The notes below the pieces were generated by a model, which saw only the letters and a list, made by a program, of their open reading frames with translations, did no database searches and was not told the origin of the DNA. Positions 1,877 to 60,769 of a DNA stretch of 64,000 bases are shown here, in pieces. Both the position numbers and the translations under genes were made by a program. The DNA is from Corynebacterium appendicis CIP 107643 (GTDB lineage Bacteria > Actinomycetota > Actinomycetes > Mycobacteriales > Mycobacteriaceae): positions 1,736,001 to 1,800,000 of the forward strand of contig NZ_CP046976.1 in assembly GCF_030408415.1 (NCBI RefSeq), written 5' to 3'. How positions within the stretch are numbered: position 1 is the stretch's first letter; each line of letters starts with the position of its first letter.

Positions 1877-3694
1877 GTGCAGCCACTATTCCGAGTCATC
1901 CGTAGCGCGTCCGCTCTTTGGCCTTATTACGTCGGCATTATCGTCGTTTCTTCGGTCACCGCGGCGCTCAACCTTGTGTCCCCGTTCATCATCCGCGAGG
2001 CCACCGACACGATTGTCGAGGGGAAAGATCTCGACCCCATTGTCTGGCTCGCAATCGCTTTGTTCGCGGCCTACTCCGCGAACACTTTGATGCAGAATTT
2101 CGGCGGCTATTTGGGCGATGTCGTCGCCGCGCGGATCCGGCAAACATTATCGACCCGGTATTTCGCCAAGCTGCTGTCTCTGCCCCAAAGCTACTTCGAC
2201 GGCCAAGTGACGGGCACGATCATTGCGCGTCTCGACCGTTCGATCATGAATATCACGCAAACGGTCCAGAGCTTTTCCAACACTCTGCTGCCGATGCTCC
2301 TGCAGGTGATTGCCATTTTGGGCATCACCGCATTCTTCTACTGGCCACTCACACTCCTCCTTCTCGCCCTGTTCCCCATCTACCTCGCCCTCACCGCGAT
2401 GACGTCGAAGAGGTGGCAGAGATTCGAGAATGGCAAGAACGAGCAGATCGACCTCGCCAACGGCCGCTTCGCCGAGGTCGTCGGCCAAGTCAAGGTCGCC
2501 AAATCATTTGTTTCCGAGACCCGGGAACTACAGAAATTCGGCGACCATTACGGAAAAACCATCGACCTCACCCGGCCCCAGTCCCGCTGGTGGCACGGAA
2601 TGGACATCGCCCGCGGCATGGCGATGAACGCGGTCTTCCTCGGCATCTACCTCATCCTGTTCATCCAGACCTACAACGGCCGCTTCTCAATCGGGGACAT
2701 GGTCATGCTCATCCAGCTGGTCACGATGGCGCAGCAACCAGTCCAGATGATGAGCTGGCTCGTCGATTCCGCCCAGCGCGCCATCGCCGGCTCCCGCGAC
2801 TACTTCAAAGTGATGGACCAACCCGTCGAAGAGTCCGCAAACTCCCAGGTCGTCGCAGCCACCGACGCCGCTGACGTTCCTGTTCTGGACACCACGCCCA
2901 TCAAGCCGCTGCCCGCTGCCGAACCGATGATCAGCTTCGACGACGTCACATTCGCCTACAACGACGAAGAGCCAGTCCTCACCGACATCTCCTTCTCCGC
3001 CCGCCACGGAGAGAAGATCGCGCTCGTCGGCGAGTCCGGCGGCGGAAAATCCACGCTGGTCAACCTCATTTTGGGCCTGTACCCCATCACCGAAGGCAAA
3101 CTCTCCGTCTGCGGCACAGACATCGGCACCGCCGATATCGAGCGCGTCCGCGCTTCCGTCGGCGTCGTCTTCCAGGAGCCCGCCCTGTTCTCCGGCACCA
3201 TCCGCGAAAACATCGCGTATGGAAATCCAAACGCGACCGACGAACAGATCAACGAGGTCGCCAAGCGCGCCAACGCCCACACCTTCATCTCCAGCTTCGC
3301 CGACGGATACGACACGGTGATCGGAGAACGCGGACTCCGCCTTTCCGGCGGCCAAAAACAGAGAGTCGCCGTCGCCCGCGCGATGCTCAAGGATGCCCCG
3401 CTGCTCGTCCTCGACGAGGCCACCTCCGCGCTCGACACCAAATCCGAACGCGCCGTCCAAGCCGGGCTCGATGAACTCATGAAAGACCGGACCACCATCA
3501 TGATCGCCCACCGCTTATCGACGATCGCCTCCGTCGACACCATCATCACCCTCAAAGATGGAAAAATTGACGAGATAGGCACACCTGCCGAGCTCGCCGT
3601 CTCCGGCGGAATTTATTCAGAGCTCCTCGCGCTAACCGCGTCGTCGTCTGCCGAAGACCGCAAGCGACTCAAGGCTTTCGGATTCAAAGCGTAG
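1877..3694 (+). CDS. ABC exporter, fused membrane and ATPase domains
   Basis: About 605 aa from GTG 1877. An N-terminal type I exporter membrane domain with six likely helices is followed by a nucleotide-binding domain with Walker A GESGGGKST, signature LSGGQKQRVAVARA, Walker B LLVLDEATSALD and H-loop IAHRLST. It works as a homo- or heterodimer; substrate unknown (lipid or drug are usual). The frame is open back to 1616, but that stretch is antisense to the lipoprotein gene. I chose GTG 1877 because TACAGT (1864-1869) lies 7 nt before it, as in leaderless actinobacterial mRNAs; GTG 1868 and ATG 1829 are alternatives. The HRLST codons use a rare TTA that is part of an over-represented 11-mer. 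Confidence 0.88.
   Translation: MQPLFRVIRSASALWPYYVGIIVVSSVTAALNLVSPFIIREATDTIVEGKDLDPIVWLAIALFAAYSANTLMQNFGGYLGDVVAARIRQTLSTRYFAKLLSLPQSYFDGQVTGTIIARLDRSIMNITQTVQSFSNTLLPMLLQVIAILGITAFFYWPLTLLLLALFPIYLALTAMTSKRWQRFENGKNEQIDLANGRFAEVVGQVKVAKSFVSETRELQKFGDHYGKTIDLTRPQSRWWHGMDIARGMAMNAVFLGIYLILFIQTYNGRFSIGDMVMLIQLVTMAQQPVQMMSWLVDSAQRAIAGSRDYFKVMDQPVEESANSQVVAATDAADVPVLDTTPIKPLPAAEPMISFDDVTFAYNDEEPVLTDISFSARHGEKIALVGESGGGKSTLVNLILGLYPITEGKLSVCGTDIGTADIERVRASVGVVFQEPALFSGTIRENIAYGNPNATDEQINEVAKRANAHTFISSFADGYDTVIGERGLRLSGGQKQRVAVARAMLKDAPLLVLDEATSALDTKSERAVQAGLDELMKDRTTIMIAHRLSTIASVDTIITLKDGKIDEIGTPAELAVSGGIYSELLALTASSSAEDRKRLKAFGFKA
3513..3523 (+). repeat. Over-represented 11-mer GCTTATCGACG (first of 18 copies)
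   Basis: Exact copies on the + strand start at 3513, 5177, 12877, 14786, 17053, 17475, 25617, 28750, 31482, 38818 and 52648. Exact copies on the - strand (read CGTCGATAAGC on +) start at 7473, 13195, 17616, 31556, 50722, 58265 and 59671. Near matches lie at about 2145, 9270, 39167, 43975 and 49177. Equal base use would give roughly 0.03 exact copies in 64 kb counting both strands. The copies at 50722 and 58265 are intergenic. In genes the motif falls in different frames (LID, VDK, LST, SIS). Function unknown; see findings. Confidence 0.85.
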
Positions 3695-3703
3695 GTTGGG
3701 GCC

Positions 3704-4832
3704 ATGCAGTTCCCAGATCTTGAGACCCTCCGCGCCCGCGGCACCCGCAAGTGGACCCAGTTCGGGGACGATGTCCTCCCCTTGTGGGTCGCCGAAAGTG
3801 ATTTCCCCACCGCCGAGCCGGTCAAGCGCGCAATTCAGACCGCCGTCGACAACGAGACCTTCGGCTACACGCCCGCCCACCACACGCTCGGAAATTCGTT
3901 GAGCAATTTCTATGAGGAACAGTACGGCTGGGCACCCGACCCCGAGTGGGTCTTCCCCGTCGCCGACGTGGTCCGCGGCATGCTGCTGGGCATCCAGTAC
4001 TTCACCAAACCGGACTCTCCCGTCATCGTTCCGGTCCCCTCGTATCCTCCCTTCCTCGAGCTTCCCGAAACCGCCGGCCGCGAGATGGTCGAGGTCGGGG
4101 CGAAGGACGGCCTGGATCTCATGGAGATCGACGCCGCCTTCAAGAACGGTGCCGGCTCGATCCTTCTGGCCTCGCCGAACAATCCGTGGGGTTACACGTT
4201 CGACGAAGAGGAGCTCGTCCAGATCACCAATATCGCCGACAAATACGGGGCCCGCGTGCTTGTCGACGAGATCCACGCGCCCATTGTCTACGACAGCTCC
4301 CACATCTGCGCCGCCAACGTCAGCGACACCGCCGCCAATGTCTGCATCACCGTCACCGCGACCTCGAAAGCGTGGAATGTCGCCGGCCTCAAGTGCGCCC
4401 AGATGGTCTTCAGCAATGTGAAAGACGTGGATACCTGGAAGAACCTCACCGGAGTAGCCAAGGACGGCACCGGCACCCTCGGCATTATCGCCGCCCAGGC
4501 CTGCTACGATCATGGAAAAGAGGCCCTCGAAGACCAACTTGCCGTCCTCAAATCGAACCGAAACTACTTGATCGACAACCTTCCAGAAGCAATTCCCGGC
4601 ATCCAGTTCACCCGCCCAGAAGCCACTTACCTCATGTTCCTCGATTTCAGCGGCACTGAGATCAAAGACGAAAAGCCGGCTGCGTGGATTCGTCGAGAAG
4701 CGAAAGTCGCGCTCAATGAGGGAGTCACGTTCGGCACTGGCGGTGCGCACCACGCGCGTCTGAATTTCGCCACTAGCCCCGAAATCTTGGCCGAAGCACT
4801 CGACCGAATTTCGACCGCTATTGTTGGGGGCC

Positions 4833-4846: not shown

Positions 4847-6551
<1,705 letters not shown>

Positions 6552-6576: not shown

Positions 6577-7626
6577 ATGGACCTGAAAAACACCCGATTT
6601 TATGGCTCGAAATCAGAGGAGATTCTGAGCCAAAAAGTTGTCGCTGAGATTCCGGCCGCAGACTATCGTTGGCAGATCCTCGAGGTCGACCACGGAAAAA
6701 TCGACCACTACCAGGTCCTCACCTCCGGCGACGACGATGTTCTCGACACGTCCGAAGGCGCCAAGACTTACCTCGAGCACCTCGCCGATTTCGGCGACAT
6801 TTCGGGCGATATGTCAGGGAAAACTGCCACCCCTCTAGGTGCCGACCAGTCGAACACGTCCCTCGTGGTCGACGACGAGTGGATCCTGAAAGTTTTCCGC
6901 AAGCTCGAAACCGGCCTGAATCCCGATGTCGAACTTCTGACCGCAATTGCCGATTGCCCCCACGTCGCCGGTGTCCGCGGCCACCTCAGTCGGGACGGCC
7001 GAACCCTCGCCATGATGCAACAGCTCATCCACGACGGCCGCGACGGTTTCCAGCTCTCGCTCGACCCCGGCCTGCGCAGCGAAGACCACCTCGGCGAGGC
7101 GATCCGGAACGTGCATAGTGCCCTGTCCGAAGCCTTCGGCACCGAGTCAGTTCCTGGCTCGCAGATCCGCGATTCCCTCAATGCGCATCTCGACGAGATC
7201 CTCACTCAAACCGATGCCCTGTCCGATTTCGAGGGCAATTTGCGGGAAATTTACTCACGGATTTCCGACGATGCGGTCGAGATCCAAAGGATTCACGGCG
7301 ACCTGCACCTTGGACAGACGCTCCTTTCCGGGGATCGTTGGTATCTGATCGATTTCGAGGGTGAACCTGCCCGCCCCCTCGAGCAGCGCCGGCTTCCCGA
7401 CCATGCTTTGCGCGATGTCGCCGGCATGGTTCGCAGCTTCGGGTATGCGCATGCGATGGGGGGAAAGGCTGACGTCGATAAGCTTCTTGCTGGCTACGGC
7501 ATCACTCCCGATCCAATCCTGGATGCGTATATTGCAGACAAGGCTGCGTACGAGGTCGTTTACGAGGCGAATAACCGTCCCGACTGGGTCGAGATTCCGC
7601 TGAGCGCGATCCGCGAATTGTCCTAA
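6577..7626 (+). CDS. mak: Maltokinase (Mak/Pep2 type)
   Basis: 349 aa. It phosphorylates maltose to maltose-1-phosphate with ATP. The kinase-like catalytic loop is IHGDLHLGQTL, followed by LIDFEGEPARPLEQRR and DHALRDVAGMVRSFGYA, all diagnostic of actinobacterial maltokinases. It is shorter than the roughly 440-450 aa mycobacterial enzymes, mainly at the C-terminus. An in-frame ATG lies at 6565, but GGAG about 7 nt before ATG 6577 favours the latter. It follows treS after 25 bp, so the pair is an operon. Its stop overlaps the stop of the convergent HNH gene by 4 bp. Confidence 0.9.
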   Translation: MDLKNTRFYGSKSEEILSQKVVAEIPAADYRWQILEVDHGKIDHYQVLTSGDDDVLDTSEGAKTYLEHLADFGDISGDMSGKTATPLGADQSNTSLVVDDEWILKVFRKLETGLNPDVELLTAIADCPHVAGVRGHLSRDGRTLAMMQQLIHDGRDGFQLSLDPGLRSEDHLGEAIRNVHSALSEAFGTESVPGSQIRDSLNAHLDEILTQTDALSDFEGNLREIYSRISDDAVEIQRIHGDLHLGQTLLSGDRWYLIDFEGEPARPLEQRRLPDHALRDVAGMVRSFGYAHAMGGKADVDKLLAGYGITPDPILDAYIADKAAYEVVYEANNRPDWVEIPLSAIRELS

Positions 7627-9367: not shown

Positions 9368-10768
9368 ATGTCTACTGCTGTTTCAAGCGGCAAGAAAGCG
9401 TCGACAAGCGCGATCGTGATCACGGCGCTCGCGCTGTTCTCGATGTTCTTCGGCGCCGGAAACCTCATCTTCCCGCCCATGCTCGCTGTTCAGGCGGGCG
9501 AAAACTTCTGGCCGGCGATTCTCGGCTTCCTCACCACGGGTGCGCTGCTGCCGGTGCTCGCGGTGGTCGCGATTGCGCTGTCGGGCTCAAACGTGCGCGA
9601 CCTCGCGCAGCGCGCCGGCACGCTTTTCGGCGTGGCTTTCCCGGTCCTCGCGTATCTCTCCATCGGTGCGTTCTACGCGCTCCCGCGCACCGGCGCCGTG
9701 TCTTTCGAGGTGGCGGTGACCCCGCTGTTCGGCTGGGACAGCACGGTCAGCAAGGTGATCTTCAACATCGTCTTCTTCGGAATCGCTCTCGCACTCTCCT
9801 GGAACCCGACGCGGATCACCGACACGCTGGGCAAATTCCTCACGCCGGCACTGGTGACGCTGCTGGTCATCATGATCGGCATGGCCATCTTCACGATGAC
9901 CAACCAGCACTACGCGCCAAGCGAGGACTTCGCGACGAACGCATACGCGTCGGGCGTTCTCGAGGGCTACCTGACCATGGACTCGATCGCTGCTCTCGCG
10001 TTCTCCATCGTCGTCATCGCGTCGCTGCGCAATAAGGGGTTTGCCGAGGGCAAGCCGCTGGTCCGCAGCACGATCCTCGCGGGCCTGGGCGCCAGCGTTT
10101 TGCTCGCGCTGATCTACCTGGGACTCGGGCTGATCGGCCGCGCGATGCCGGACGCACTCCAGTACGACTCCGGCGCACCTTTGCTTGCCGACGCCGCGTT
10201 GCAGCTCATGGGCCGCCCCGGCCAGACCGTCTTCGCTCTGATCGTCGTGCTCGCATGCTTGACCACAGCGATTGGCCTGATCACCTCCACAGGCGAGTAC
10301 TTCTCCCAGCAGTTCGCCGGCTCGTACCGCACTTGGGCGGTCACCTTTGCCGTGGCCTCCGCCATCATGGCGACGCAAGGCCTGGACTTCGTGATCTCGA
10401 TCGCCGGCCCGGTCGTCGGCTTCCTGTACCCACCGGCGATCACCCTGATCTTCGTCACCTTGGTTGAGCCGCTTTTCCGCCGCCGCACCCGCCTGCGCTG
10501 GGGCTTCTTCCTGCCGATCTGGGTCGCTGTCATCTGGTCGCTCATCAACACCTTCATCTCGCTGGGATGGGCTGCCGATGTGCTGTCCCCGCTCGTCGAC
10601 TGGTCACCTCTGCAGGCTAACGACCTCGGTTGGATGCTGCCGACGGCGGTGGCGTTCGTGATCGGTGCGGGCATTGATATCGCTAAGCCTCATGCTCCGC
10701 TGGAGATCGGCACGCAGGTGACGGTCGATGGAGAGACGATCGAAGAGGCCGAAGCCCACAACGCGTAA
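9368..10768 (+). CDS. brnQ: Branched-chain amino acid carrier BrnQ
   Basis: 466 aa with about 12 predicted membrane helices, of the LIVCS family. It imports Ile, Leu and Val by cation symport. The N-terminal LFSMFFGAGNLIFPPMLAVQAG is the family signature. ATG 9368 has an AGGGAGG ribosome site. In C. glutamicum brnQ lies directly downstream of aecD and is followed by a luciferase-like gene; the downstream half of that order is kept here, while treS, mak and an HNH gene separate it from aecD. Confidence 0.95.
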   Translation: MSTAVSSGKKASTSAIVITALALFSMFFGAGNLIFPPMLAVQAGENFWPAILGFLTTGALLPVLAVVAIALSGSNVRDLAQRAGTLFGVAFPVLAYLSIGAFYALPRTGAVSFEVAVTPLFGWDSTVSKVIFNIVFFGIALALSWNPTRITDTLGKFLTPALVTLLVIMIGMAIFTMTNQHYAPSEDFATNAYASGVLEGYLTMDSIAALAFSIVVIASLRNKGFAEGKPLVRSTILAGLGASVLLALIYLGLGLIGRAMPDALQYDSGAPLLADAALQLMGRPGQTVFALIVVLACLTTAIGLITSTGEYFSQQFAGSYRTWAVTFAVASAIMATQGLDFVISIAGPVVGFLYPPAITLIFVTLVEPLFRRRTRLRWGFFLPIWVAVIWSLINTFISLGWAADVLSPLVDWSPLQANDLGWMLPTAVAFVIGAGIDIAKPHAPLEIGTQVTVDGETIEEAEAHNA

Positions 10769-11883: not shown

Positions 11884-12657
11884 GTGAGAGCCTGGAGAAT
11901 CGCCATAGCACGCCAACAACATGAGGAAATCGCGCGGTACCTCCGCGACCTGATCCACGACGGCGTACTCGTCCCCGGCGATCCCCTCCCCTCCGAAGCA
12001 GAACTCTGCGAGAAATTCGACACCTCACGCGGGCCCGTGCGCCAAGCGGTCGCAGCGCTACGCGGCGACGGACTCATTTCTTCGGGGCGCGGTCGACGCT
12101 CGCTGGTATTGGAGGCGCCGAAAGTGAACAGCTTCGACGCGCTGATTTCCACCACGTCCCTCCTCCAAGAAGCTAACCAGGAGGCGGGCGATAAGATCCT
12201 CCGCGTCGCACGCGAACCAGCAACGCCGACGATCGCAGAGCTACTGAACCTCGAGATCAATGATCCGGTCGTCGAGATCGTCCGGGTCCGCACGGCGAAC
12301 GAAACCCCTGTGCTCATCGAGAGGCTGGTGTTTCCATTCACAATCGGTGAGCGCTTTTTGACGTTGGAGCCAGGGGCCGAGGCTTTGCACGACCAGCTTT
12401 TCGACGGCGGCGTGGTCATCGACAACGCGTCCCGCACCGCACAGGTGTCCACGGCGACTGCCCACCAGGCAGAGCTTTTGGGCATCGCCGAAGGAGAGCC
12501 GGTGTGGAAGCTTGAGATGCGGGCTTCCACCTTCCAAGGCGAGCCCGTCGAATACGCGGAGAATATCTACCGCGGCGATGTGGTCAAGGTCGAATTGAGC
12601 AGCGTGCGGGGCGCGTCCATCCCGCTGAAGTTTGAGATCACCGCAGCGCACGAATAG
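11884..12657 (+). CDS. GntR-family regulator with UTRA domain (HutC type)
   Basis: 257 aa. The N-terminal winged helix (about residues 10-80) includes SEAELCEKFDTSRGPVRQAV and a wing segment. The C-terminal UTRA ligand-binding fold (about 90-245) has PVLIERLVFPF and PVEYAENIYRGD, as in the HutC subfamily. Start is GTG 11884 with no good ribosome site. It stands at the head of an ABC importer/ribokinase operon on the same strand, so it most likely controls that operon in response to its substrate or a breakdown product. Confidence 0.88.
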   Translation: MRAWRIAIARQQHEEIARYLRDLIHDGVLVPGDPLPSEAELCEKFDTSRGPVRQAVAALRGDGLISSGRGRRSLVLEAPKVNSFDALISTTSLLQEANQEAGDKILRVAREPATPTIAELLNLEINDPVVEIVRVRTANETPVLIERLVFPFTIGERFLTLEPGAEALHDQLFDGGVVIDNASRTAQVSTATAHQAELLGIAEGEPVWKLEMRASTFQGEPVEYAENIYRGDVVKVELSSVRGASIPLKFEITAAHE

Positions 12658-12667: not shown

Positions 12668-14146
12668 ATGAGAGCAAGAGGTGCCGTGGTGGCGGTGCTT
12701 GCGGTCGGATCGCTGTCGGCATGTTCCGCTGGCAGTACGGCATCGAACGTCGGCCGCATTGAACCTGAAAGTGTCGTCGTGGGCACAACATCCGCGCCCG
12801 CCTCGCTCGACTTCACAACCACGGGCGGCGCGGCCATTCCTCAGGCGCTCATGGGCAACGTGTACGAGACGCTCGTGCTTATCGACGACACCGGTACGCC
12901 CCAGCCCCTTCTCGCCGAGAGCTGGGACGTGAGCGAGGACCGCACTGAGTATGTTTTTCACCTCAAAGACGGGGTCACCTTTTCCAACGGCGAGAGATTC
13001 ACCGCCGAGACGGCCGCGTTTTCCATCGATTATGTGCAAAATGAGTGGACGAACGGCCTTGCGAAGCAGATGAATCCGGTCAGAGATGTCGAGGCTCTCG
13101 ATCCACTGACTCTGAAGGTGACATTGGAGTCTCCATCCAATAGTTGGTTGTGGTCGATGGGGACGTTGACGGGGGCGATGATGGCGCCGGAAGGCGTCGA
13201 TAAGCTGGCCACCGATCCTGTGGGAACCGGGCCGTACGTGGTCGACCGTTTCGCGCTCGGCGAGTCGATTTCTTTTGATGCGCGCGAGGATTATTGGGGC
13301 GAGCCGGCGCAGCAGGACGCTGCGATCAGGTACTTTTCGGACGCTGTGTCTTCTGTCAATGCTTTGCGCGTGGGCGATGTCGATGTGCTGTGGGGCTTGC
13401 AGGCGCCGGAATTGCTGGAGACACTTCCCGACTCTTTCGGCATCGACGTCGGCACGACGAACGGCGAGGTGCTGCTGAGCTTGAATAACCGGCGTTTTCC
13501 ATTCGACGACCCGGATGTGCGCCGCGCGGTCGGGTACGCGATTGACCGGGATGCGCTCAACGACGTCGTGTGGAATGGATTAGCGACCGACACTGGCGGC
13601 GCCCCAGTGTCCCCGAGCGATCCGTGGTTCACCGGGAAAGACTATTTTCCGTTCGATCCGGACAAGGCGCGGGAATTGCTGCGCGGACGATCTCCGGAAG
13701 TGGTGATCACCGTGCCGTCTCTTCCCTACGCGCAAGATGCGGCGGAGCTGATCTTCTCCCAGCTGAAGGATGTCGGCTTCGACGTGAGGCTAGAGACCGT
13801 GGAATTTCCCGCGGTGTGGCTGAACCAGGTGCTCCAGCAGGCGGACTACCAGTCATCAATGATCGCGCACGTGGAACCGCGCGATGTGCAGCAATTGTTT
13901 TCTCCCGAGTATTACCTCGGGTTCGATTCTGACGCGGTGCGAAGAGATTTCGCGAATGCCGACGCCGGGACGCCGGAAGAGAATGTCGAGTACATGAAGG
14001 ACGCTGTCGATTCGATCATGGAGGAAGCGGGCGCTGTCACGTTGGCGAATTTGCCCAATATTGTCGTCACGGCGCCCGGCGTGGAGGGTGTGGATCCGAC
14101 GGTGGTCACCGACGGAATCGACCTTTCGGGGGTGACCAAGCGGTGA
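12668..14146 (+). CDS. Peptide-type ABC importer, substrate-binding lipoprotein
   Basis: About 492 aa from ATG 12668. A lipoprotein signal peptide ends at the lipobox SLSAC (Cys19). The mature part is an SBP_bac_5 cluster C protein with the family stretch YVFHLKDGVTFSNGE and VRRAVGYAIDRDAL. Homologues bind oligopeptides, nickel, opines or glycosides; the neighbouring ribokinase hints at a sugar-containing ligand, which is inference. An in-frame start at 12632 would lie inside the GntR gene and would spoil the signal peptide. Its stop overlaps the permease start by 4 bp (GTGA). Confidence 0.9.
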   Translation: MRARGAVVAVLAVGSLSACSAGSTASNVGRIEPESVVVGTTSAPASLDFTTTGGAAIPQALMGNVYETLVLIDDTGTPQPLLAESWDVSEDRTEYVFHLKDGVTFSNGERFTAETAAFSIDYVQNEWTNGLAKQMNPVRDVEALDPLTLKVTLESPSNSWLWSMGTLTGAMMAPEGVDKLATDPVGTGPYVVDRFALGESISFDAREDYWGEPAQQDAAIRYFSDAVSSVNALRVGDVDVLWGLQAPELLETLPDSFGIDVGTTNGEVLLSLNNRRFPFDDPDVRRAVGYAIDRDALNDVVWNGLATDTGGAPVSPSDPWFTGKDYFPFDPDKARELLRGRSPEVVITVPSLPYAQDAAELIFSQLKDVGFDVRLETVEFPAVWLNQVLQQADYQSSMIAHVEPRDVQQLFSPEYYLGFDSDAVRRDFANADAGTPEENVEYMKDAVDSIMEEAGAVTLANLPNIVVTAPGVEGVDPTVVTDGIDLSGVTKR

Positions 14147-15075
14147 AAGCTTTAGTCCGGTTCTTCTCGATGCTCGTCGCGGCGAGCGTCATCATTTTCC
14201 TGTTGCTGCGGGCCGTCCCCGGCGACCCGGCGCGGATCGCTTTGGGCGTGACTGCGACCGACGAGGACGTGGCGAAACTAGCGAACCAACTGGGCACGGA
14301 CAAGCCTCTTTACCAGCAGTATTTCGACTGGATCGGCGGCATGCTCACAGGCAATTTCGGGATCTCGTTGACCAGCAAGCAGGACATCACTCCCCTAGTG
14401 ATCGACCGGATGCAGGTCTCGCTGATCCTGACGGTGAGCGCCATGGTTTTGTCGATGGCGATCGCGATTCCGCTGGGAACGTATCTGGTCCGGCGCCGCG
14501 GGAAGCTGGATACGGCGATCGTGTCGGCCTTGACGCAGGCCGGTATCGCAGTTCCGAGTTTTCTGGTCGGCATTTTGACGGTGGCTGTGTTCTCCGTCTG
14601 GCTCGGGTGGTTGCCCGCCAATGGTTGGGTGCCGCCGAATGCGGGATTCGGGGATTTCGTGGCGCACCTTGTTCTTCCGGTGGTGGCTCTGTCGCTCGTT
14701 CAGGCGGCGATTCTGACGCGGTATGTGCGCAGCGCCGTCAACGAGGAGTTGGACAAGGACTATGTGCGCACTGCGCGGGCAGTCGGCTTATCGACGAGAC
14801 AAGCTCTGTACCGGCATGCTTTGCGCAATGCATTTCTCCCGGTTTTGACGGTCACGGGACTGCAGCTCACGACGCTGATCGTCGGTGCGGTGGTGATTGA
14901 GAAGGTGTTCGCGCTGCCGGGGCTCGGCTCCATGCTTTTGGATGCTGTGGCGACGCGCGACCTCACCACGGTGCAGACCCTGATGATGCTGCTCGTGGTG
15001 TTCACTCTGGCGGTGACGTTGATCGTCGATGTCCTTTATCGCTTCATCGACCCGCGGCTCAGGAGGCAGGCATGA
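14143..15075 (+). CDS. Peptide-type ABC importer permease (DppB-like)
   Basis: 310 aa with about six helices. It opens with the DppB-type FSMLVAASVIIFLLLRAVPGDPARIALG and has the cytoplasmic EELDKDYVRTARAVGLSTRQALYRHALRNA coupling loop that contacts the ATPase. Start is GTG overlapping the upstream stop, and its stop overlaps the next start (ATGA). It contains a rare TTA codon within one copy of the 11-mer repeat (14786). Confidence 0.9.
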   Translation: MKALVRFFSMLVAASVIIFLLLRAVPGDPARIALGVTATDEDVAKLANQLGTDKPLYQQYFDWIGGMLTGNFGISLTSKQDITPLVIDRMQVSLILTVSAMVLSMAIAIPLGTYLVRRRGKLDTAIVSALTQAGIAVPSFLVGILTVAVFSVWLGWLPANGWVPPNAGFGDFVAHLVLPVVALSLVQAAILTRYVRSAVNEELDKDYVRTARAVGLSTRQALYRHALRNAFLPVLTVTGLQLTTLIVGAVVIEKVFALPGLGSMLLDAVATRDLTTVQTLMMLLVVFTLAVTLIVDVLYRFIDPRLRRQA

Positions 15076-15857: not shown

Positions 15858-17248
15858 CTCTCGTGCGCATTGAGAACCTCACCATCGACGGGATCCTGGA
15901 GGGGATCTCCTTCGACATTCAGCCCGGCGAAAGGCTCGGGCTGATCGGCGAGTCTGGTTCCGGCAAGTCGATGACGGCGCTGACGATCATGGGGCTGTTG
16001 GACGAAAGATTGAAGCCGAGCGGCACCGTGATGCTCGACGGCGCCGACATGATCAATTCGTCCCCGCGGGTGAAGAGGAAGCTGCGCGGCACGAAAGTGG
16101 GGATGATCTTCCAGGAACCGATGACTGCCCTGGACCCGCTGATGACGGTCGAACGCCAGGTGGCGGAAGCGTGCTCGCTCGACAAAGCCCGCGAACTTTT
16201 GCACGAGGTCGGGGTCGATCGCACCTCGAGCTACCCGCACGAATTGTCCGGCGGACAGAGGCAAAGAGTGTTGATTGCTTTGGCGATTGCAGGTGATCCC
16301 GATCTGCTCATCTGCGACGAGCCCACGACAGCGCTGGACGTGGAAGTGCAGCAGCAGATCCTCGATCTGCTGGACAGCCTGGTTCGGGAGCGCGGGATGG
16401 CGTTGCTGTTCATCACCCACGACCTCGCCGTGATCAGGAAGATGATCGACCGCGTGATCGTGCTCAAGGGCGGAAGAATCGTGGACCAAAACGCGGATCT
16501 GGATGCGCCGAAAGTCGACTACACCGCCCAGCTGGTGGAGGCGTCGAAGCCAAAATCATCAGCAGAAATCCGCGCAACAGGCGAACCGATCATCGAGCTG
16601 AAGGACGTGACGTGGCGCCGCGGAAGCACGGTGGCGCTGGACAATGTGAACTTGACTGTTCACGAAGGCGAAAGAGTTGGCATCGTCGGCGGCTCGGGGT
16701 CGGGAAAGACGTCCCTGTTGAGGGTCATTTCCGGGTTGAACGAGCCGGATTCAGGCACGGTGCGCGTCGACGGCGACCTGCAGATGGTCTTCCAGGACCC
16801 CTACTCTTCCCTCAATCCGCGGCGAAAAGTACGCGATTCCATCAGGGAGGCCGGCGTGGACGAGGCGCGGGCTGACGAAGTTCTTTCCCAAGTCGGGCTG
16901 GAGGGAATGGGCTCGAGGTTTCCGAGCCAGTTCTCCGGCGGGCAGCGCCAGCGCATCTCGATCGCGCGCGCCGCGGCCCCGCACCCGGAGATCCTCATCG
17001 CGGACGAGCCGGTCTCCGCGCTCGACGTGTCGGTGCGCGCGCAAGTGCTGGAGCTTATCGACGACCTCGTCGTCCACGACCGCGCCACCCTCATCTTCGT
17101 CTCGCACGACCTGTCCGTGGTCCGCCAAGTCTGTCCGTCAATCGCGGTGTTGTACCACGGGAAGATCGTCGAAATGGGGCCCACGGAAGAGGTGTGGGCG
17201 AACCCGCAGCACGAGTACACGCAGAAATTGCTCGCCGCGATTCCGTAG
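15854..17248 (+). CDS. Fused DppD/DppF-type ABC ATPase
   Basis: 464 aa with two complete nucleotide-binding domains. Domain 1 (about 1-230) has Walker A GESGSGKS, signature LSGGQRQRVLIA and Walker B LLICDEPTTALD. Domain 2 (about 240-464) has GGSGSGKT, FSGGQRQRISIA and ILIADEPVSALD. It energises uptake through the two permeases just upstream. The second domain is shorter than a stand-alone DppF and ends in the HEYTQKLL segment usual for this family. The ribokinase gene begins 12 bp after its stop. Confidence 0.92.
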   Translation: MTLVRIENLTIDGILEGISFDIQPGERLGLIGESGSGKSMTALTIMGLLDERLKPSGTVMLDGADMINSSPRVKRKLRGTKVGMIFQEPMTALDPLMTVERQVAEACSLDKARELLHEVGVDRTSSYPHELSGGQRQRVLIALAIAGDPDLLICDEPTTALDVEVQQQILDLLDSLVRERGMALLFITHDLAVIRKMIDRVIVLKGGRIVDQNADLDAPKVDYTAQLVEASKPKSSAEIRATGEPIIELKDVTWRRGSTVALDNVNLTVHEGERVGIVGGSGSGKTSLLRVISGLNEPDSGTVRVDGDLQMVFQDPYSSLNPRRKVRDSIREAGVDEARADEVLSQVGLEGMGSRFPSQFSGGQRQRISIARAAAPHPEILIADEPVSALDVSVRAQVLELIDDLVVHDRATLIFVSHDLSVVRQVCPSIAVLYHGKIVEMGPTEEVWANPQHEYTQKLLAAIP

Positions 17249-18147: not shown

Positions 18148-18884
18148 GCCGCACCCTGCGCGAATTCATCGTGATGACGGTTGTCGTTCCCACCACCATC
18201 CTCATTCTCGCCTTCAGCATTTTCGGCGGCACCGCGATCTCGTTCTCGCGCGACGGCGTCGAGGGCTTCGACGGGGAATCCACGCCAGAGCAAGTACTTT
18301 TCTCGCTTTTCGACGCCCTCCCCCTCTCCTCCGCCACCCCCTATATCCTCATCGGGATCCTGGCCGTTTTCTTCATTACCACTGCTGATTCCGCATCGGT
18401 GGTCATGGGGACGATGTCGTCGAAGGGCGACCCCGACCCCAACAAGAAGGTCTCCGTGTTTTGGGGCTTGTGCATGATGGGCGTCGCCGCTGTCATGCTG
18501 TTGTCCGGCGGCGAGGATGCGCTGTCCGGTCTGCAGTCTTTGACGGTGCTGATTGCTCTCCCCTTCTCCATCGTCATGCTGGGTCTGCTGTTTTCTTCCG
18601 TCCAGGACTTGCGGACTGATCCCCATTCGATCCGCGACAAGTACGCCGAGACCGCCCTCCAATACGCCGTGTGGCACGGCCTTGAAGATTACGGCGACGA
18701 CTTCGAACTCGTCGTGCAGAAAGCCCGCGAAGGCGACGGCGCCGGCGAGGACTTCGACTCCACCGACGACAAATACACGCGCTGGTACGAGCGTTCCGAT
18801 GAAAGGGGCAACCGTGTCGGATACGACTACGAGACTGGCACCTGGGAAGACGGCTACATCAAGGACGAAGTCGAGGAAGACTAG
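18147..18884 (+). pseudogene. 3' remnant of a BCCT transporter (ectP-like)
   Basis: Reading from 18147 gives GRTLREFIVMTVVVPTT, the conserved BCCT segment before the last helices, then about four helices and a long acidic C-terminal tail ending GYIKDEVEED. BCCT carriers have about 12 helices in 550-650 aa, so more than half of the N-terminal part is missing. Homology starts in the last base of the ribokinase stop with no promoter or ribosome site. In C. glutamicum the compatible-solute carrier gene ectP follows the luciferase-like gene after brnQ, which this remnant matches. A cut-down product from GTG 18171 is possible but should not transport. Confidence 0.85.
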
Positions 18885-22068: not shown

Positions 22069-22097
22069 TTTGCTTGTCGACGTCGCGTGACACCCAC

Positions 22098-50643: not shown

Positions 50644-50788
50644 GAGGAGGTGCCTGCCTTTCGGGTGGTGTCAGAAGCGGTTTTCCGCGTGCTAGCGAGT
50701 GTACGAGAGGCCGCGGTGGACCGTCGATAAGCGAAAGCGCCGTGCGACCCTAGGCGGATCCACGGCGCGATCAAAGAGTTTGCGGGAG

Positions 50789-52602: not shown

Positions 52603-55563
52603 CTACCGCGACTTACGCGTCGCGCGCCGACGCCCACGAGGGCCTTTGCTTATCGACGCCCCCTGCGTCCCTTCCTGCCTCTTTTGCCCCTTCCCGGACT
52701 GCTTCTCCTGCTGCTGGCGCGGGGTATGTGGCTGGCGCTGCTGGTTCTGCCGCCCGGAGGTACGGCGCGTAGCACGGCGACGACGGCGAGTGCCACGGCC
52801 CGCGCCTTCACGACGCTGAGCGGCAGAGGTCGACTCCCCGGAATCCTTCTCGCCCACGATATCCGTGGACGCGGCGGATTCCGCGAACGCCAGAGCATCG
52901 GCGGCTTCGCCGATCACGTCCTCGGTGGACGCGTCGTCGTAATCCTTCGGGTCCGGACGGTAATCCGACACCGAATTGCCGCGGGTCTTACGCTTACGGC
53001 GCGGTGAACTCTCAAACTCGGCCACAGCTTCCTCATAGGTCTGGCTCTTCTTCTGGCCGGACCGGTTGCCGGACTTCTCCTGGTCCTTGTCTTCGTCGTG
53101 GCCTTGGCCGCGCTCGTTGCGCTGCTCATCCTGCTGGCGACCCCGGCCCCGCCCGGAACCGCGGCGGCCGCGGCGGCGGGACGACCGGCGCTTAGGCTGG
53201 TCGCCGCGGGAATCAGAAGAGTCTGCGTCAGAAGAGTCTGCGTCAGAAGAATCGGAGTCGGAGGGGTCGGCAACGACGGCGTCGACAAGCTCCTCTGTGC
53301 TCTTTTTGTTGCGTTTCTCCATCGCCTTCGCGGCGGGGTGGTCGCCCGCCGCGTGGGCGTGGCGCTGGGGGTGGGAGGAATCGGGGTCGACGGGGTCGTC
53401 GGTAAGCACGATGCCGCGGCCGTCGCAATGCTCGCACTTGGTGGAGAACGTTTCCACGAGACCTGTTCCCAGGCGTTTGCGGGTGAGCTGGACAAGACCG
53501 AGCGACGTGACCTCCGAGACCTGGTGGCGCGTGCGGTCGCGGCCGAGCGCTTCCTTCAGGCGGCGCAGGACGAGATCCTGGTTCTCGGGCAGGATCATGT
53601 CGATGAAGTCGATGATGATCATGCCGCCGATATCGCGCAGGCGCAGCTGCCGGACGATCTCCTCGGCGGCCTCGAGGTTGTTGCTGGTCACCGTCTCCTC
53701 CAGCGAGCCGCCGGAACCGGTGAATTTGCCGGTGTTGACGTCGATGACCGTCATGGCCTCCGTGCGGTCGATCACCAGCGTGCCGCCCGACGGCAGCCAC
53801 ACCGTGCGCGACAGGGCCTTCTGGATCTGCTCGTCGACGCGGTGGACGTCGAACGCGTCGCGGCCGTCGTGGGCGCGGCGGTCGAATTTCTCCAGGCGGT
53901 CGAGCAAGTCAGGCGCGACGGACTGCACGTAGTTGTGCACGACATTCCACGACTTCTTGCCGTCAATGACGAGCTGGTCAAAGTCCTCGTTGAACAGGTC
54001 GCGCACGACCTTGACCAGAAGACGCGGCTCCTCGTACAGGGTGACGGGCTTGGCGCCCTTCGACTTCTTCTCCTTTTCCGCCTCTTCCTGGATGGCCTCC
54101 CACTGGGAGTGCAGGCGGTTGACGTCGGCGGCGATGGCTTCCTCCGGCGCGCCCTCGGCGGCGGTGCGGATGATCGTCCCTCCCTTGCCGGGCACGACGC
54201 GGACGAGAATGTCCTTCAGGCGCTTGCGCTCTGGCGCGGGCAGCTTGCGCGAAATGCCGGCGCTGCGGCCGCCGGGCACGTACACGAGGAAGCGGCCGGC
54301 CAGTGAAATCTGGGTGGTCAAGCGCGCACCCTTGTGCCCCACCGGGTCCTTGGTCACCTGGACCAGCACCTGGTCGCCGGACTTGAGCGCCTGCTCGATG
54401 CGGCGCGAACGGCCGCCCAATCCTGCTGCCTTCCAGTCCACCTCACCGGCGTAGAGCACGCCGTTGCGGCCCTGCCCGATGTCGATGAACGCGGCCTCCA
54501 TGCTCGGCAGCACATTCTGCACGCGACCGAGGTAGATATTGCCGATCATTGACGCGTTGTCGTCGGAATCGACGAAGTGCTCCACCAAAAGGCCGTCCTC
54601 GAGGACGCCGACCTGGGTGATGGTGCCGGAGCCGTCGTGACGCTTGCGTTCGCGCACGACCATCGTGCGTTCGACGGACTCGCGGCGCGCGAGGAATTCC
54701 GCCTGCGACACGACGCGGGACCGTTTGCGCTCCTCCTCGCGTCGCTCGCTGCGTCGGCGGCGCTGCGCCTCCAGCCGCGACGAGCCCTTGATCGCCTTCG
54801 GTTCCTGGATCGGCTCGTCGGTAGCGGTTTCCTCCGGCTTCGGGGCATCGCTTGTCGACGAATCCCCCTGCCTCCTCGCCCTTCTCCTCTCCCCCCGGGG
54901 CGCAGCCTTGAACACCGGCGTGTACACGCCGGCGGTTTCCTCGGTGTCCTCCGTCGGGGCCGGGGCCGGCGTGATCTCGGGCTCAACGTCGGTGAGCAGG
55001 TCCGCCTCGACCTTCTCCTCGATCTGGTTGATCTCGTTCTCGACGTCCTTGCGGACGCGGTGGCGGATCTTCTCCTCTGCCGCGGCCTCATCCGGCGCGG
55101 TGTCCGCGGTTGTTTCGGGCGCGGTATCGGCTTCTGCCGCGTCGGCTGCCGGAGTGCCCTCGACCGCATCGAGCACTTGCTCCGTCTCGGCCTTGCTCAG
55201 CGAAGACTGCGCGACCTTCACCAGCCCCAGCTCGTTGAGCTTGACCACAAGGTCCTTCGACGTCATCCCCAGCATCTTCGCCAGGACGAACACCCGGGTC
55301 TTCTCGCCCAGCTGCGAACGGTCGACCGTCGCGGGTTGGGTGGTTGCCTCCTGCGCAGCCTTCTCCACATTCGCTTCCGCCGCGCGAGTGGACGACTTTT
55401 TAGTTGTCTTCTTCGTCGACTTCTTCGTCGCTTTCGCGGCCTGCTTGGTCGCTTTCTTAGCTGTCTTCTTAGCGGTCGTCTTCGCCGCTTTCTTTGTCGT
55501 TTTCTTCGCCGTCGAGCGTGCCCGGCGCTTACGTGGGGTCGTTGTCTCGTCGCTGTCAGCCAC
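52603..55563 (-). CDS. rne: Ribonuclease E/G with IF2-N-like and Lys-rich N-terminal region
   Basis: 986 aa. A histone-H1-like Lys/Ala-rich stretch (about 10-60) is followed by an IF2_N-like module (about 88-135, KTRVFVLAKMLGMTSKDL), an acidic linker, and the RNase E/G core: S1 domain (GNIYLGRVQNVLPSMEAAFIDIGQGRNGVLY), DNase-like domain with catalytic Asp in DVNTGKF and IIDFIDM, and the zinc-link CEHC. The C-terminal 250 residues are Arg/Ser-rich and disordered, as in scaffolds for degradosomes. Central enzyme of RNA decay and rRNA processing. Confidence 0.95.
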   Translation of the reverse strand: MADSDETTTPRKRRARSTAKKTTKKAAKTTAKKTAKKATKQAAKATKKSTKKTTKKSSTRAAEANVEKAAQEATTQPATVDRSQLGEKTRVFVLAKMLGMTSKDLVVKLNELGLVKVAQSSLSKAETEQVLDAVEGTPAADAAEADTAPETTADTAPDEAAAEEKIRHRVRKDVENEINQIEEKVEADLLTDVEPEITPAPAPTEDTEETAGVYTPVFKAAPRGERRRARRQGDSSTSDAPKPEETATDEPIQEPKAIKGSSRLEAQRRRRSERREEERKRSRVVSQAEFLARRESVERTMVVRERKRHDGSGTITQVGVLEDGLLVEHFVDSDDNASMIGNIYLGRVQNVLPSMEAAFIDIGQGRNGVLYAGEVDWKAAGLGGRSRRIEQALKSGDQVLVQVTKDPVGHKGARLTTQISLAGRFLVYVPGGRSAGISRKLPAPERKRLKDILVRVVPGKGGTIIRTAAEGAPEEAIAADVNRLHSQWEAIQEEAEKEKKSKGAKPVTLYEEPRLLVKVVRDLFNEDFDQLVIDGKKSWNVVHNYVQSVAPDLLDRLEKFDRRAHDGRDAFDVHRVDEQIQKALSRTVWLPSGGTLVIDRTEAMTVIDVNTGKFTGSGGSLEETVTSNNLEAAEEIVRQLRLRDIGGMIIIDFIDMILPENQDLVLRRLKEALGRDRTRHQVSEVTSLGLVQLTRKRLGTGLVETFSTKCEHCDGRGIVLTDDPVDPDSSHPQRHAHAAGDHPAAKAMEKRNKKSTEELVDAVVADPSDSDSSDADSSDADSSDSRGDQPKRRSSRRRGRRGSGRGRGRQQDEQRNERGQGHDEDKDQEKSGNRSGQKKSQTYEEAVAEFESSPRRKRKTRGNSVSDYRPDPKDYDDASTEDVIGEAADALAFAESAASTDIVGEKDSGESTSAAQRREGAGRGTRRRRRATRRTSGRQNQQRQPHTPRQQQEKQSGKGQKRQEGTQGASISKGPRGRRRATRKSR

Positions 55564-56454: not shown

Positions 56455-58155
56455 CTAGCGTTTCTCCTGGAAGCCCTGGCCCGCCACCCAGGTACGGGAC
56501 ACAGCGAGGCTGGCGGACGCACCCGGGTCCTCCACGTCCGAGACACGGTAGAAGTCCATGACCACCTTGTCCTTGGAAATCTTGGCGATGCCGTAACCGT
56601 GGGAGTCGAAATCCACGTGGTTGACCCACGGGTTCGCGGAGTACATCACGCCTTCCACGAGGTGGGTGATGCGGTTGTCCTCGGGGGTGTAGGTCTTCGT
56701 GTAGATGGCGACGATCTCGTCCACATTCGGCGCCGTGATCGACGAGCACACCATCTCGCAGCCGATCTCGTTGCCCTTGTGGCGCACCGAGTGGGCCCAC
56801 TCGGAGTGAATGTCGCCGGTAAGGAAAAGGGTGTGAGGGGTGGTGTTGGTGAGGACGTCGAAAAGCCGTGCCCTCTCTGCGCGGTACCCGTCCCACTGGT
56901 CGGTGTTGACGGCAATGCCCGCAGAGCGCGTGAACTCGTCCAGGACGTCGTTCGCGGTGCGGTTGTCGGAGCTGGTCGGCGGCAGGTGGCCGATCTCCAT
57001 CGGTGAGACCATGACCGAGTTGCCCAGCACATTCCACGCGGTCGTGGCGGTTTCCACTTTGCCCTTGACCCAGTCGAACTGCTCGGAACCGAGCATGCTT
57101 CGCGACGGATCGTCCTTGTCTCGCCCGATCGCCTTGACCTGCTCGTCGCGGTAGGTGCGCAAGTCCATCATCGTGAGGCTGATCAGATTGCCGAACTGGT
57201 AGCTGCGGTAGATATGCCCGCCCTCCGACGGTCGCACCGCACGCACCGGAAGCCACTCAAAGTAGGCCTGGTGGGCGAAGGATTCGCGCTTATTCCACTC
57301 CCCCTCGGCGCCCTCGGTGTGGTTCTCTGCGCCGCCGTCCCAAGAGTCGTTGGCGGACTCGTGGTCGTCCCACACGACGACCCACGGCGCAGCGGCGTGC
57401 GCCGCCTGGAGGTGCTCGTCGGTGCGGTAGCGGCCGTAGCGGACACGGTAATCCTGCAGCGAGACGATCTCGTGCGCCGGGTGGTGCGGACGGGACACGC
57501 CGCTCTTACCCGCGTATTCGCCGGTCGGGTACTCGTAGATGTAGTCGCCCAGGAAGACGACCAGGTCGATCTCGCCAGCCGCCGCCCGCTCCGCCATGTC
57601 GCGGTACGCGGTGAAATAGCCGCACTCGTAGTTTGCGCACGAGGCGACGGCGAGCTTGTACTCGCCGATATCCGCGGTGTACGCCGGAGCCGTGTGCGTG
57701 ACGCCCACCGGAGAGACCTTGCCGTCCCAGCGGAAACGGTAGAAATAGTCGGTCGCCGGCTTCAGGCCGCGCGGATCCACCTTCACAGTGTGGTCCGTTG
57801 CGGACGTGGCGCGCTCCGCGCCTGTGCGGACGATGTTCGCGAACTCGCGGTCCGTGGCGATCTCCCACTCGACCGCCGCGTCCGCGCCCTTGCCCGAGCC
57901 CGGCACAGCGTCCGGTGACACCGTCACGCGGGTCCAGATGATCACGGAATCCGGTGTCGGATCGCCCGATGCGACACCGTGCATGAACGCCGCGTACTGC
58001 TTCGGCTTCGGAGCCTGCGGCAAGCGTGCCGACGACAGCGCCCGCGACGACGGCAGTTGAGCATTCGCCGTGGTGTTACCGGCCACAGCCACACCAGCGG
58101 CAGCTGCTGCGGAACCAGCGAGGAAGCGACGGCGGGGAAGATTATTGTTAGCCAT
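56455..58155 (-). CDS. phoD: Alkaline phosphatase D, Tat-exported
   Basis: 566 aa. A twin-arginine signal (RRRFLAGSAAAAAGVAVAG) sends the folded enzyme outside. An N-terminal PhoD domain (about 50-150) precedes the metallophosphatase core with LVVFLGDYIYEY, WDDHESANDSW and LTGDIHSEWAHSV, which bind calcium/iron. It cleaves phosphate mono- and diesters. One copy of the 11-mer lies in the gap to ndk. Phosphate control is expected; no PHO box checked. Confidence 0.93.
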   Translation of the reverse strand: MANNNLPRRRFLAGSAAAAAGVAVAGNTTANAQLPSSRALSSARLPQAPKPKQYAAFMHGVASGDPTPDSVIIWTRVTVSPDAVPGSGKGADAAVEWEIATDREFANIVRTGAERATSATDHTVKVDPRGLKPATDYFYRFRWDGKVSPVGVTHTAPAYTADIGEYKLAVASCANYECGYFTAYRDMAERAAAGEIDLVVFLGDYIYEYPTGEYAGKSGVSRPHHPAHEIVSLQDYRVRYGRYRTDEHLQAAHAAAPWVVVWDDHESANDSWDGGAENHTEGAEGEWNKRESFAHQAYFEWLPVRAVRPSEGGHIYRSYQFGNLISLTMMDLRTYRDEQVKAIGRDKDDPSRSMLGSEQFDWVKGKVETATTAWNVLGNSVMVSPMEIGHLPPTSSDNRTANDVLDEFTRSAGIAVNTDQWDGYRAERARLFDVLTNTTPHTLFLTGDIHSEWAHSVRHKGNEIGCEMVCSSITAPNVDEIVAIYTKTYTPEDNRITHLVEGVMYSANPWVNHVDFDSHGYGIAKISKDKVVMDFYRVSDVEDPGASASLAVSRTWVAGQGFQEKR

Positions 58156-58319
58156 GCTGACAACTGTCGAATCCCCCGTTCAGCGGCGCAACTGGAATCC
58201 AGCCCCACGTCCCAATGTTCCGCGTGAATTCACGGGGAATTCATGTTGAGGGGTGCGGGGTGAACGTCGATAAGCATGCAACAAGCTCGCGCACGACGGC
58301 GCGGGCTGCGAGAAACTGG

Positions 58320-58730: not shown

Positions 58731-58750
58731 GGCCCCAACACTACCGCCTG

Positions 58751-59068: not shown

Positions 59069-59230
59069 GGCTCCCAAAGGTACCTGGACGTGGGCAAACA
59101 CCGCCGGATGAAAATTATTTCGTTTTTTCATGCAAAGCACTGAGACGAGCGTCACAATAGTAGATAGGTTTTGCCTAGCTAACTTCCACGGCAGGACGTG
59201 ACATACCGCGAACGCGAAAGGAGACGCGCC

Positions 59231-60769
59231 ATGACGGCCACCCTCACCTCCCCCACGATCTTCCCCAGTCCGTATCCCGACCTCGAACTTTTCGGCGGCA
59301 CGGTCTACGAGCAGATCTTCAACGACCTCACCGCCGCAGATGCCGCCCGCCCGGCGATCACGGAGCTGACCACCGGCAACTCCATCACCTACGGCGAGCT
59401 CAAGGAAAAAGCTGACGCGGTCGCCGGCTACTTGGCGCAGCGCGGCATCGGGCCCGGCAGCGTCGTGTCGCTGCAGATCCCCAACTCGATCAATTTCGCG
59501 GTGGCCCTGTTCGGCATCTTCCGCGCGGGTGCGACAGTGAACCCGATCGGCGTACTCATGAATAACGACGACGTTGAAAAGGTCTCGGAAATGGCCGGTG
59601 CAGACCTCTTCATCGGGATCTCCGACGTGGGACACGACAAGCACGTGTGGGATTACGAGCTGGAAGAAATCGTCGATAAGCGATTGCCCGCTCCCGATGT
59701 CGACGTCGACGGAAGCTCGCTCGCGTCCGTGCCGTTCTCCTCGGGCACGACCGGGATGCCGAAGGGCGTGATGCTCACGCACAGCAACCTCACGTCGAAT
59801 GTGCTGCAGGCGCGCTACATGCTGGAGAAGAACGGCATCGGCCCGCACACGTCGACCCTGTCTCCCCTGCCCTTTTCGCACATTTACGGCATGACGGCGC
59901 TGATGCTCACGCCGATGCTGCAACGCTCGCACATCCACACGATGTCGAAATTCGACCTCGAGGTCTTCCTTCGCGCGCACGGCGAGCACAACATCGAGAT
60001 GACGTTCATCGCCCCGCCCATGGCCGTCGCGCTGGCGAAGCACCCGGCCGTCACGCCCGAAGGTTTCGCCGCGAATAAGCTCATGTTCTCCGGCGCCGCG
60101 CCGCTCGACGAGGAAGTCGCGCGCGCCGTCGAGCGCCGCCTCGGCACCGACTGCGTGCAAGGTTACGGTATGACGGAAACATCGCCGGCGGTCAATATCG
60201 GCATCAAGGGCGAGACCAACCCGGGCTCCATCGGCTACGCGGTGCCGAACACGGAGTGCCGCATCGTGGACATCGAGACACTCGAGGACGTCCCCCACGG
60301 CGAGCCCGGCGAGCTGCTCGTGCGCGGGCCGCAGGTCATGCAGGGCTACCTGAACAACCAGGAAGCGACCGAGGAGACCTTCGTCGACGGCGGGTGGCTG
60401 CGCACCGGCGACGTCGCGCGCGTCGACGAAGACGGGCGCTTCTACATCGTCGACCGCGCCAAGGAAGTCATCAAATACAAGGGCTACCAGGTCGCTCCCG
60501 CTGAGCTCGAGGCGCTGCTGCTCACGCACGAAGCAATTGCCGACGCCGGCGTCGTCGGCGTCGACCGCGACGGACTCGAGATTCCGCGCGCATTCGTCGT
60601 GCTGCAGCCCGGCGCCTCGCTTTCCGCCGACGAGCTGATGGACTGGGTCGCCGAACGCGTCACCCCCTACAAGAAGGTGCGCGCGGTGACATTCCTCGAC
60701 GAGATCCCGAAGAACCCCACCGGCAAGATCCTGCGCAAGGACCTGCGTCTGATCCCGCTGGAGGGGTAA
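59231..60769 (+). CDS. Acyl-CoA synthetase, AMP-binding family
   Basis: 512 aa. Activates a carboxylic acid to its CoA thioester with ATP. The AMP-binding motif is PFSSGTTGMPKGVMLTH, the YGMTE motif is VQGYGMTETSP, and the C-terminal motif is PTGKILRKDLR, whose Lys acts in the first half-reaction. It resembles medium/long-chain and coumarate-type ligases. ATG 59231 has AAAGGAG; a start at 59198 does not. It lies upstream of two acyl-CoA dehydrogenases, suggesting a beta-oxidation or short aromatic/branched acid pathway. One 11-mer lies inside (59671). Confidence 0.9.
   Translation: MTATLTSPTIFPSPYPDLELFGGTVYEQIFNDLTAADAARPAITELTTGNSITYGELKEKADAVAGYLAQRGIGPGSVVSLQIPNSINFAVALFGIFRAGATVNPIGVLMNNDDVEKVSEMAGADLFIGISDVGHDKHVWDYELEEIVDKRLPAPDVDVDGSSLASVPFSSGTTGMPKGVMLTHSNLTSNVLQARYMLEKNGIGPHTSTLSPLPFSHIYGMTALMLTPMLQRSHIHTMSKFDLEVFLRAHGEHNIEMTFIAPPMAVALAKHPAVTPEGFAANKLMFSGAAPLDEEVARAVERRLGTDCVQGYGMTETSPAVNIGIKGETNPGSIGYAVPNTECRIVDIETLEDVPHGEPGELLVRGPQVMQGYLNNQEATEETFVDGGWLRTGDVARVDEDGRFYIVDRAKEVIKYKGYQVAPAELEALLLTHEAIADAGVVGVDRDGLEIPRAFVVLQPGASLSADELMDWVAERVTPYKKVRAVTFLDEIPKNPTGKILRKDLRLIPLEG

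Follow-up and report, generated by a model that had tools for sequence, protein, structure and literature searches.

The 11-base word GCTTATCGACG is repeated throughout the genome of Corynebacterium appendicis CIP 107643. From comparison of genomes, we think that its core, GCTTNNCGAYG, together with a C-rich 3' flank, is probably a DNA uptake sequence (DUS) of naturally competent corynebacteria. The stretch analysed here, which we call the window, is 64,000 nucleotides long and covers positions 1,736,001–1,800,000 of this genome (2,284,440 bases, one contig). An earlier inspection of these letters, referred to below as the original prediction, had claimed 18 exact copies in the window, 11 on the + strand and 7 on the – strand, and had taken the word for a genome-wide DNA signal. 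We recovered all 18 at the same positions, and 100 shuffles gave a mean of 0.05 copies and a maximum of 1. The whole genome holds 585 copies (303 +, 282 –) as compared with 1 copy (0 + 1) of the reversed word used as a control. In a sample of 882 kb, consisting of the window and 41 other stretches and covering 39% of the genome, the word occurred 238 times when an order-4 Markov model led us to expect 3.45. It was the most enriched 11-mer in this sample, and the 11-mers ranked next were mostly the same word in a shifted register. The counts are far above the Markov expectation and the copies are not confined to one gene family. These results establish GCTTATCGACG as a genome-wide signal.

Near matches had also been mentioned in the original prediction. 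They do exist in the window, where five had been counted: 16 further sites vary only at position 5, making 34 core sites in total. Over 464 kb we found 111 exact copies and 111 copies with one mismatch. The mismatch was at position 5 in 69 of the latter (C 25, G 26, T 18), at position 3 in 14, and at position 6 in 12, with 16 at the other eight positions together. A gapped-word search of 240 kb gave 109 occurrences of GCTT..CGACG against 7.9 expected, so that positions 5 and 6 both tolerate change. The resulting core is not palindromic. On the strand of the word, C is frequent and G scarce over about 30 bp 3' of the core, with C favoured at bases 2 and 5 beyond it, and this flank is strongly strand-asymmetric. 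The printed flanks of the copies had no longer sequence in common. In genome G122 there is an added upstream GGGGC(A/T)TTT and a G in the flank; over 16 kb, G122 is identical to the locus of Corynebacterium sp. Marseille-P4321. We also considered a triplet-phased flank, with C at every third base downstream as for RecA-type triplet reading, and rejected it as mostly codon wobble. In copies without an open frame having its wobble base in that phase (42 of 356, own genome), C made up 51.7, 47.6, and 42.0% by phase, values that lie closer together, and a stricter non-coding filter left 2 sites.

To place the copies relative to genes we used gene calls from a rough script of our own; some copies scored as intergenic appear to be coding, and genes were probably missed. 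With these calls, 274 of the 356 core sites with full flanks in the genome sample are in called genes, 80 are between genes, and 2 are on edges. One sense frame (G CTT NTC GAC G) accounts for 159 of the 274 in-gene copies, the two other sense frames account for 13, and 102 are antisense (74, 25, and 3 by phase). The two copies that had been placed between genes, at 50722 and 58265, both fall between called genes. A strand bias relative to origin and terminus had been proposed as a check. With both points inferred from GC skew, 181 of 358 core sites are on the leading strand (binomial P 0.87), which is no bias. In 40 bins of 20 kb the variance-to-mean ratio was 1.07, indicating Poisson-like spacing with no clustering at the origin or terminus. 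Neither feature of a KOPS or segregation site, terminus-directed orientation or regional clustering, was seen with these 358 sites and 40 bins. The sole core-free bin of the 40 sampled (locus L008, G000:C1:798001-818000) has a transposase among its genes.

The claim that only one copy lies in the accessory island holds for a definable stretch rich in insertion sequences (IS) at about 35.2–46.9 kb of the window (11.7 kb). This stretch has 1 of the 34 window core sites (Poisson P ~0.005, with borders chosen after the fact), an exact copy at 38818..38828 on the + strand, with no other site among the IS elements there. Plasmid pET44827 has no core sites in 29 kb. Plasmid pTP10 has 4 in 51 kb, a density close to that of the host chromosome; three of these are in the annotated mshC gene and one is in a tetracycline-efflux gene.

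The original prediction had called for a count in other Corynebacterium genomes. For this we used 151 Corynebacterium genomes, an even sample of a larger set. The core GCTTNTCGACG, which we call the first dialect, is present in at least 50 copies in 110 of them and in at least 100 copies in 104, with a maximum of 1351 and a bimodal distribution. Counts for named species come from 48 genomes reached via named loci, with reversed controls of 5–34 per genome. Among others, they were high in C. glaucum (905), C. pilosum (879), C. urinipleomorphum (826), the environmental species C. lubricantis (553), C. aurimucosum (532), C. minutissimum (520), C. propinquum (401), C. striatum (376), and C. tuberculostearicum (278 and 263). 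Intermediate counts were observed in C. mastitidis (104), C. pygosceleis (61), C. sp. zg-331 (59), and C. uropygiale (58), and low counts in C. variabile (32), C. glyciniphilum (23), C. jeikeium (21), C. spheniscorum (13), C. macginleyi (8), C. falsenii (3), and C. phocae (2). The word is nearly restricted to the genus. In 185 genomes from 30 other genera of the family, the first-dialect core reached about 32 per Mb at most, as compared with 398 per Mb in the window's genome. This density was that of G250, with 145 copies (reversed control 24); G185 has 147 copies (reversed control 48). A few of these relatives are several-fold above the reversed control, and none is near the level of the genus.

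Word analysis of genomes with low counts showed GCTTNNCGATG to be enriched instead. This second dialect, GCTTNYCGATG, is abundant in 8 of the 151 genomes: G143 (850 copies), G111 (804), G006 (796), G105 (765), G144 (699), G053 (611), G094 (589), and G138 (566), where reversed controls gave 1–15. Two genomes are intermediate (G073, 145; G084, 107) and the remaining genomes have about 10 to 108. The two dialects are largely exclusive, with mostly one per species. In seven of the eight second-dialect genomes there are fewer than 50 copies of the first; the exception is G143 with 117. With both spellings, G143 is perhaps a genome caught in the middle of a dialect change. Of the 41 genomes low in the first dialect, 7 use the second, and several of these are nested between first-dialect species. 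Neither dialect is present in strength in 34 of the 151. Word analysis of G014, G133, and a 60-kb sample of G054 gave no third dialect. In G133, GCTC..CGACG is mildly in excess (68 vs 31.4).

We then compared orthologous sites in 43 loci (named relatives, the window, and one further genome) at 74–100% identity, where pairs share species and are not independent. The core was kept in 363 of 533 directional site comparisons as against 144 expected from other positions of the same alignments. Between G085 and G012 (92.6% identity), 21 of 22 sites were kept when 11.5 were expected. A quick LepA tree placed C. tuberculostearicum and a group consisting of Corynebacterium sp. MSK130, KPL1814, and C. 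macginleyi in one clade (SH-aLRT 100). When first-dialect sites of C. tuberculostearicum SK141 were compared with sp. MSK130 (80.5% identity), 6 of 8 had the second dialect in place, and in the reverse direction 6 of 9 were exchanged. From C. curieae to C. macginleyi 3 of 7 sites were in the other dialect, and in reverse 3 of 5. In more distant pairs, 9 of 29 (G085 to G138) and 9 of 35 (G012 to G138) had switched, with the rest matching neither dialect. When second-dialect genomes were compared with each other, 12 of 12, 8 of 11, and 5 of 6 sites stayed the same. In the commonest frame the change of dialect from GAC to GAT is synonymous. Because the same single base is changed at most sites of a close pair while the core is otherwise kept, which would not be expected by chance at that identity, a reader of changed preference is needed. 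We have very little doubt that some trans-acting, genome-wide reader is behind the word.

Among the options raised earlier for such a signal, uptake is favoured by the dialect pattern, which resembles that of DUS dialects. Segregation and Chi-type repair are disfavoured by the absence of strand bias, clustering, and RecC. In the mechanism that we infer, a surface protein able to read sequence, plausibly a Tad-type minor pilin or a ComEA-like protein, would bind free DNA bearing the word. The bound DNA would be pulled to ComEA and ComEC, enter as a single strand, and recombine with the homologous stretch of the chromosome. If alleles bearing the word were imported more often, the word would build up in core DNA by molecular drive. 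A shift in the preference of the reader, presumably from GAC to GAT, in some lineages could then be followed by sites throughout the genome, giving the two dialects.

The machinery for such a process is encoded in the window's genome, which has ComEC, ComEA, and a type IV-like pilus. The genes comEA and comEC, reported in the window by the original prediction, were both matched by Pfam profiles. The candidate DNA uptake channel gene comEC is at 25438..27033 on the – strand (Competence, PF03772, E 5.5e-41), and comEA, which encodes a candidate DNA-binding uptake protein (SLBB and helix-hairpin-helix), is at 27033..27662 on the – strand (PF12836, E 6.5e-21). A Tad-type locus is present at about 155.9–160.7 kb of the genome. 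Pfam matches there are to T2SSE, T2SSF, and DUF4244 only, and we take its products to be TadA, TadB, TadC, a DUF4244 pilin, and small TadE-like and TadF-like frames. All 151 genomes have ComEC; the DUF4244 Tad pilin is present in 148 and T2SSF in 143. Two T2SSF matches at E <1e-8 were seen in 95 of 117 word-bearing versus 5 of 34 non-bearing genomes, a marked difference that is confounded by clade and by the sensitivity of the hidden Markov models. Judged by the number and strength of HHH_3 matches, which were not each inspected, only G138 and G125 lack ComEA. The ComEC match of G125 lacks the first 27 profile positions. The difference in length among ComEC open frames goes with an extended N-terminus, seen in both of the long sequences that we aligned, and with no extra Pfam domain. 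A single HHH_3 match of ComEA strength was observed in G000, G035, G071, G104, G114, and G149, and also in G092 (77% complete). In these seven genomes the HHH_3 protein of about 780 residues found in most others, which is presumably Tex-like, seems to be absent. Loss of com genes as a general cause of low counts was considered and rejected: comEC and Tad show no apparent damage in several genomes with low counts, and the second dialect is used by 7 of the 41. A receptor scan in ComEA, ComEC, Flp, TadE, and TadF gave no clear candidate.

The host is a member of the Actinomycetota whose cells have a mycolate outer layer, unlike the Gram-negative Neisseriaceae. Micrococcus luteus, another possible comparison, is without a mycolate outer membrane. 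According to published accounts, DUS and uptake signal sequences (USS) have dialects, are absent in some relatives, show no orientation, are unevenly spaced, and have a low density in acquired DNA (PMC3630211, PMC1939737, PMC7811141). As in the Neisseriaceae (PMC3630211), we observed a short non-palindromic word whose copies number from hundreds to thousands in each genome, usually a single dialect to a species with small base differences around a constant inner part, absence from some relatives, and a type IV-like pilus with ComEC-type machinery. It differs from the DUS of that family in its unrelated sequence, its C-rich flank, and the Tad type of the pilus, with no ComP identified, and uptake is here a presumed function. 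The word is like the USS of Pasteurellaceae, as these are described in PMC7811141 and PMC12616744, in having a core of about 9–11 bp with a weaker extended flank and in occurring on both strands, and it may be like them in being low in newly acquired DNA, but the core is different and the flank is C-rich rather than AT-rich. Natural transformation of M. luteus provides a case within the Actinobacteria, where the competence-related genes include tadA genes and comEA (PMC6667448). The term "uptake sequence" occurs 0 times in the main text of that paper.

Several observations weigh against uptake. We found no report of natural transformation of any Corynebacterium in our searches of the open-licence PMC literature. 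With our rough gene calls, the 80 of 356 sites between called genes compare with 21.4% of the sample not called coding, which is no non-coding excess. DUS and USS are reported to be in excess in non-coding DNA, a tendency rather than a definition (PMC1939737), and Pasteurellaceae USS are also low in coding DNA (PMC7811141, PMC12616744), which we did not see for this word. Any depletion in mobile DNA was judged from small samples. All 34 genomes without either dialect have ComEC and 33 of the 34 have the DUF4244 pilin, so the machinery does not predict the word. There are 1030 core copies in G071, which has neither a T2SSF nor a DUF4244 match, and 1188 in G075, which has no T2SSF match. The assembly of G071 is listed as 100% complete in 30 contigs, and its Tad locus is either lost or in an assembly gap. 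In G138 (locus L052, G138:C2:1646500-1662500) comEC is truncated and comEA and holA are remnants, yet there are 566 second-dialect copies. Both ambiguous bases of L052 fall at the comEC/comEA damage, and an assembly fault may explain part of it. Since the words are kept despite apparently broken comEC and comEA, an uptake sequence would need a recent loss of competence in this genome. The nearest named DNA match of L052 is C. striatum, yet the LepA tree groups G138 with G053 and C. phocae. We saw no residue in ComEA or ComEC that would divide the two dialects cleanly, and the comparison of pilins is underpowered, with only 1 first-dialect TadE row and 4 TadF rows across both dialects. Because of G071 and the missing non-coding excess, we slightly lowered our confidence in uptake.

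A reader could also act inside the cell. The word might be the site of a chromosome-organising protein (nucleoid-associated protein, condensin loader, or occlusion factor) whose specificity changed in some lineages. This would provide the trans-acting reader needed for the exchange of dialects at orthologous sites and for site conservation, and it would also cover word-rich genomes without Tad matches such as G071. We regard it as rather unlikely given the Poisson-like spacing (index 1.07) without clustering at origin or terminus, the non-palindromic core, the 34 of 151 genomes that do without the word, and the accessory segment that is nearly free of it.

Readings as a Chi, KOPS, or methylation word fit worse. 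A Chi-type recombination hot spot acting on the helicase-nuclease AdnAB, where RecA would be loaded on the C-rich flank (G-rich complement), would agree with the strong strand asymmetry of the flank. PDDEXK_1 proteins occur in all 151 genomes, and many of their frames are about 1000 residues long, the size expected of AdnAB. However, they are equally present in word-free genomes, a leading-strand bias is absent, the triplet phasing of the flank is mostly codon wobble, and the RecC family (PF04257) was found in 0 of 151 genomes. This makes a Chi function improbable. It would be similarly surprising if the word were the self-marking signal of a defence or restriction system, either methylated or exempting. 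The cyanobacterial HIP1, another strongly iterated genome-wide word, shows that such iteration is possible for methylation-linked words, and the IS-rich segment holds few sites. HIP1, as described in PMC4390886, is an 8-bp palindrome linked to methyltransferases, unlike the long, non-palindromic word with its asymmetric flank observed here. That the word merely results from codon or peptide usage, or comes from a dispersed mobile repeat, might be suggested by the 159 of 274 in-gene copies in the one frame where GAC to GAT is synonymous, but this can practically be dismissed in view of the antisense copies (102 of 274), those in other frames and those outside called genes (80 of 356), the single copy of the reversed control, and flanks without a longer common sequence.

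To our knowledge, self-recognition uptake tags are so far known in two Gram-negative families only. We lean towards regarding this as the first DUS system outside the Neisseriaceae and Pasteurellaceae: an old, genus-wide, dialect-forming tag in the Actinomycetota, with a Tad-pilus-linked reader and a mycolate outer membrane. Corynebacteria of skin and mucosa would then be transformable now, or have been until recently, picking the DNA of their kin. Such a third case, unrelated to the others and from a different phylum, would show that uptake words have arisen more than once, perhaps in any setting where there is an outer membrane to cross. It would also lead us to expect that a genus of human commensals has a natural competence that is still hidden, and the two dialects in sister species would be a natural experiment for finding the receptor. 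Even without uptake, the exchange of one base at orthologous sites genome-wide demands a reader, and we found none in our searches of the open-licence PMC literature.

In the window, exact copies of GCTTATCGACG on the + strand are at 3513..3523, 5177..5187, 12877..12887, 14786..14796, 17053..17063, 17475..17485, 25617..25627 (within comEC), 28750..28760, 31472..31482, and 52648..52658 (within the RNase E/G gene), in addition to the copy among the IS elements. Those on the – strand are at 7473..7483, 13195..13205, 17616..17626, 31556..31566, 50722..50732, 58265..58275, and 59671..59681. Core sites with T at position 5 are at 720..730, 5612..5622, 12396..12406, and 18305..18315 on the + strand and at 1174..1184 and 56856..56866 on the – strand. 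G is at this position at 4258..4268, 22072..22082, and 54850..54860 on the + strand and at 9399..9409, 20931..20941, 24249..24259, 27827..27837, and 53280..53290 on the – strand, where 53280..53290 and 54850..54860 are within the RNase E/G gene. Two – strand sites have C, at 4691..4701 and, within comEA, at 27089..27099.

Other repeats were also observed. At 37530–37841 of the window, GAGCCGTCCGAG occurs 14 times in a short-spaced array coding for a stretch rich in Ser-Glu-Pro/Thr, within an open reading frame (36498–38153) that has a putative ice-binding-like adhesive domain. In G133, a genome with neither dialect, locus L088 (G133:C1:400001-420000) has a local array of about nine palindromic GATGCACGTGCATC units at 2033–4184, mostly 80–130 bases apart with one gap of 1.4 kb. 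In 60 kb of G054 (L233–L235), the overlapping 10-mers GGGTTATCCG and TTATCCGGGT occur in 9 copies each.

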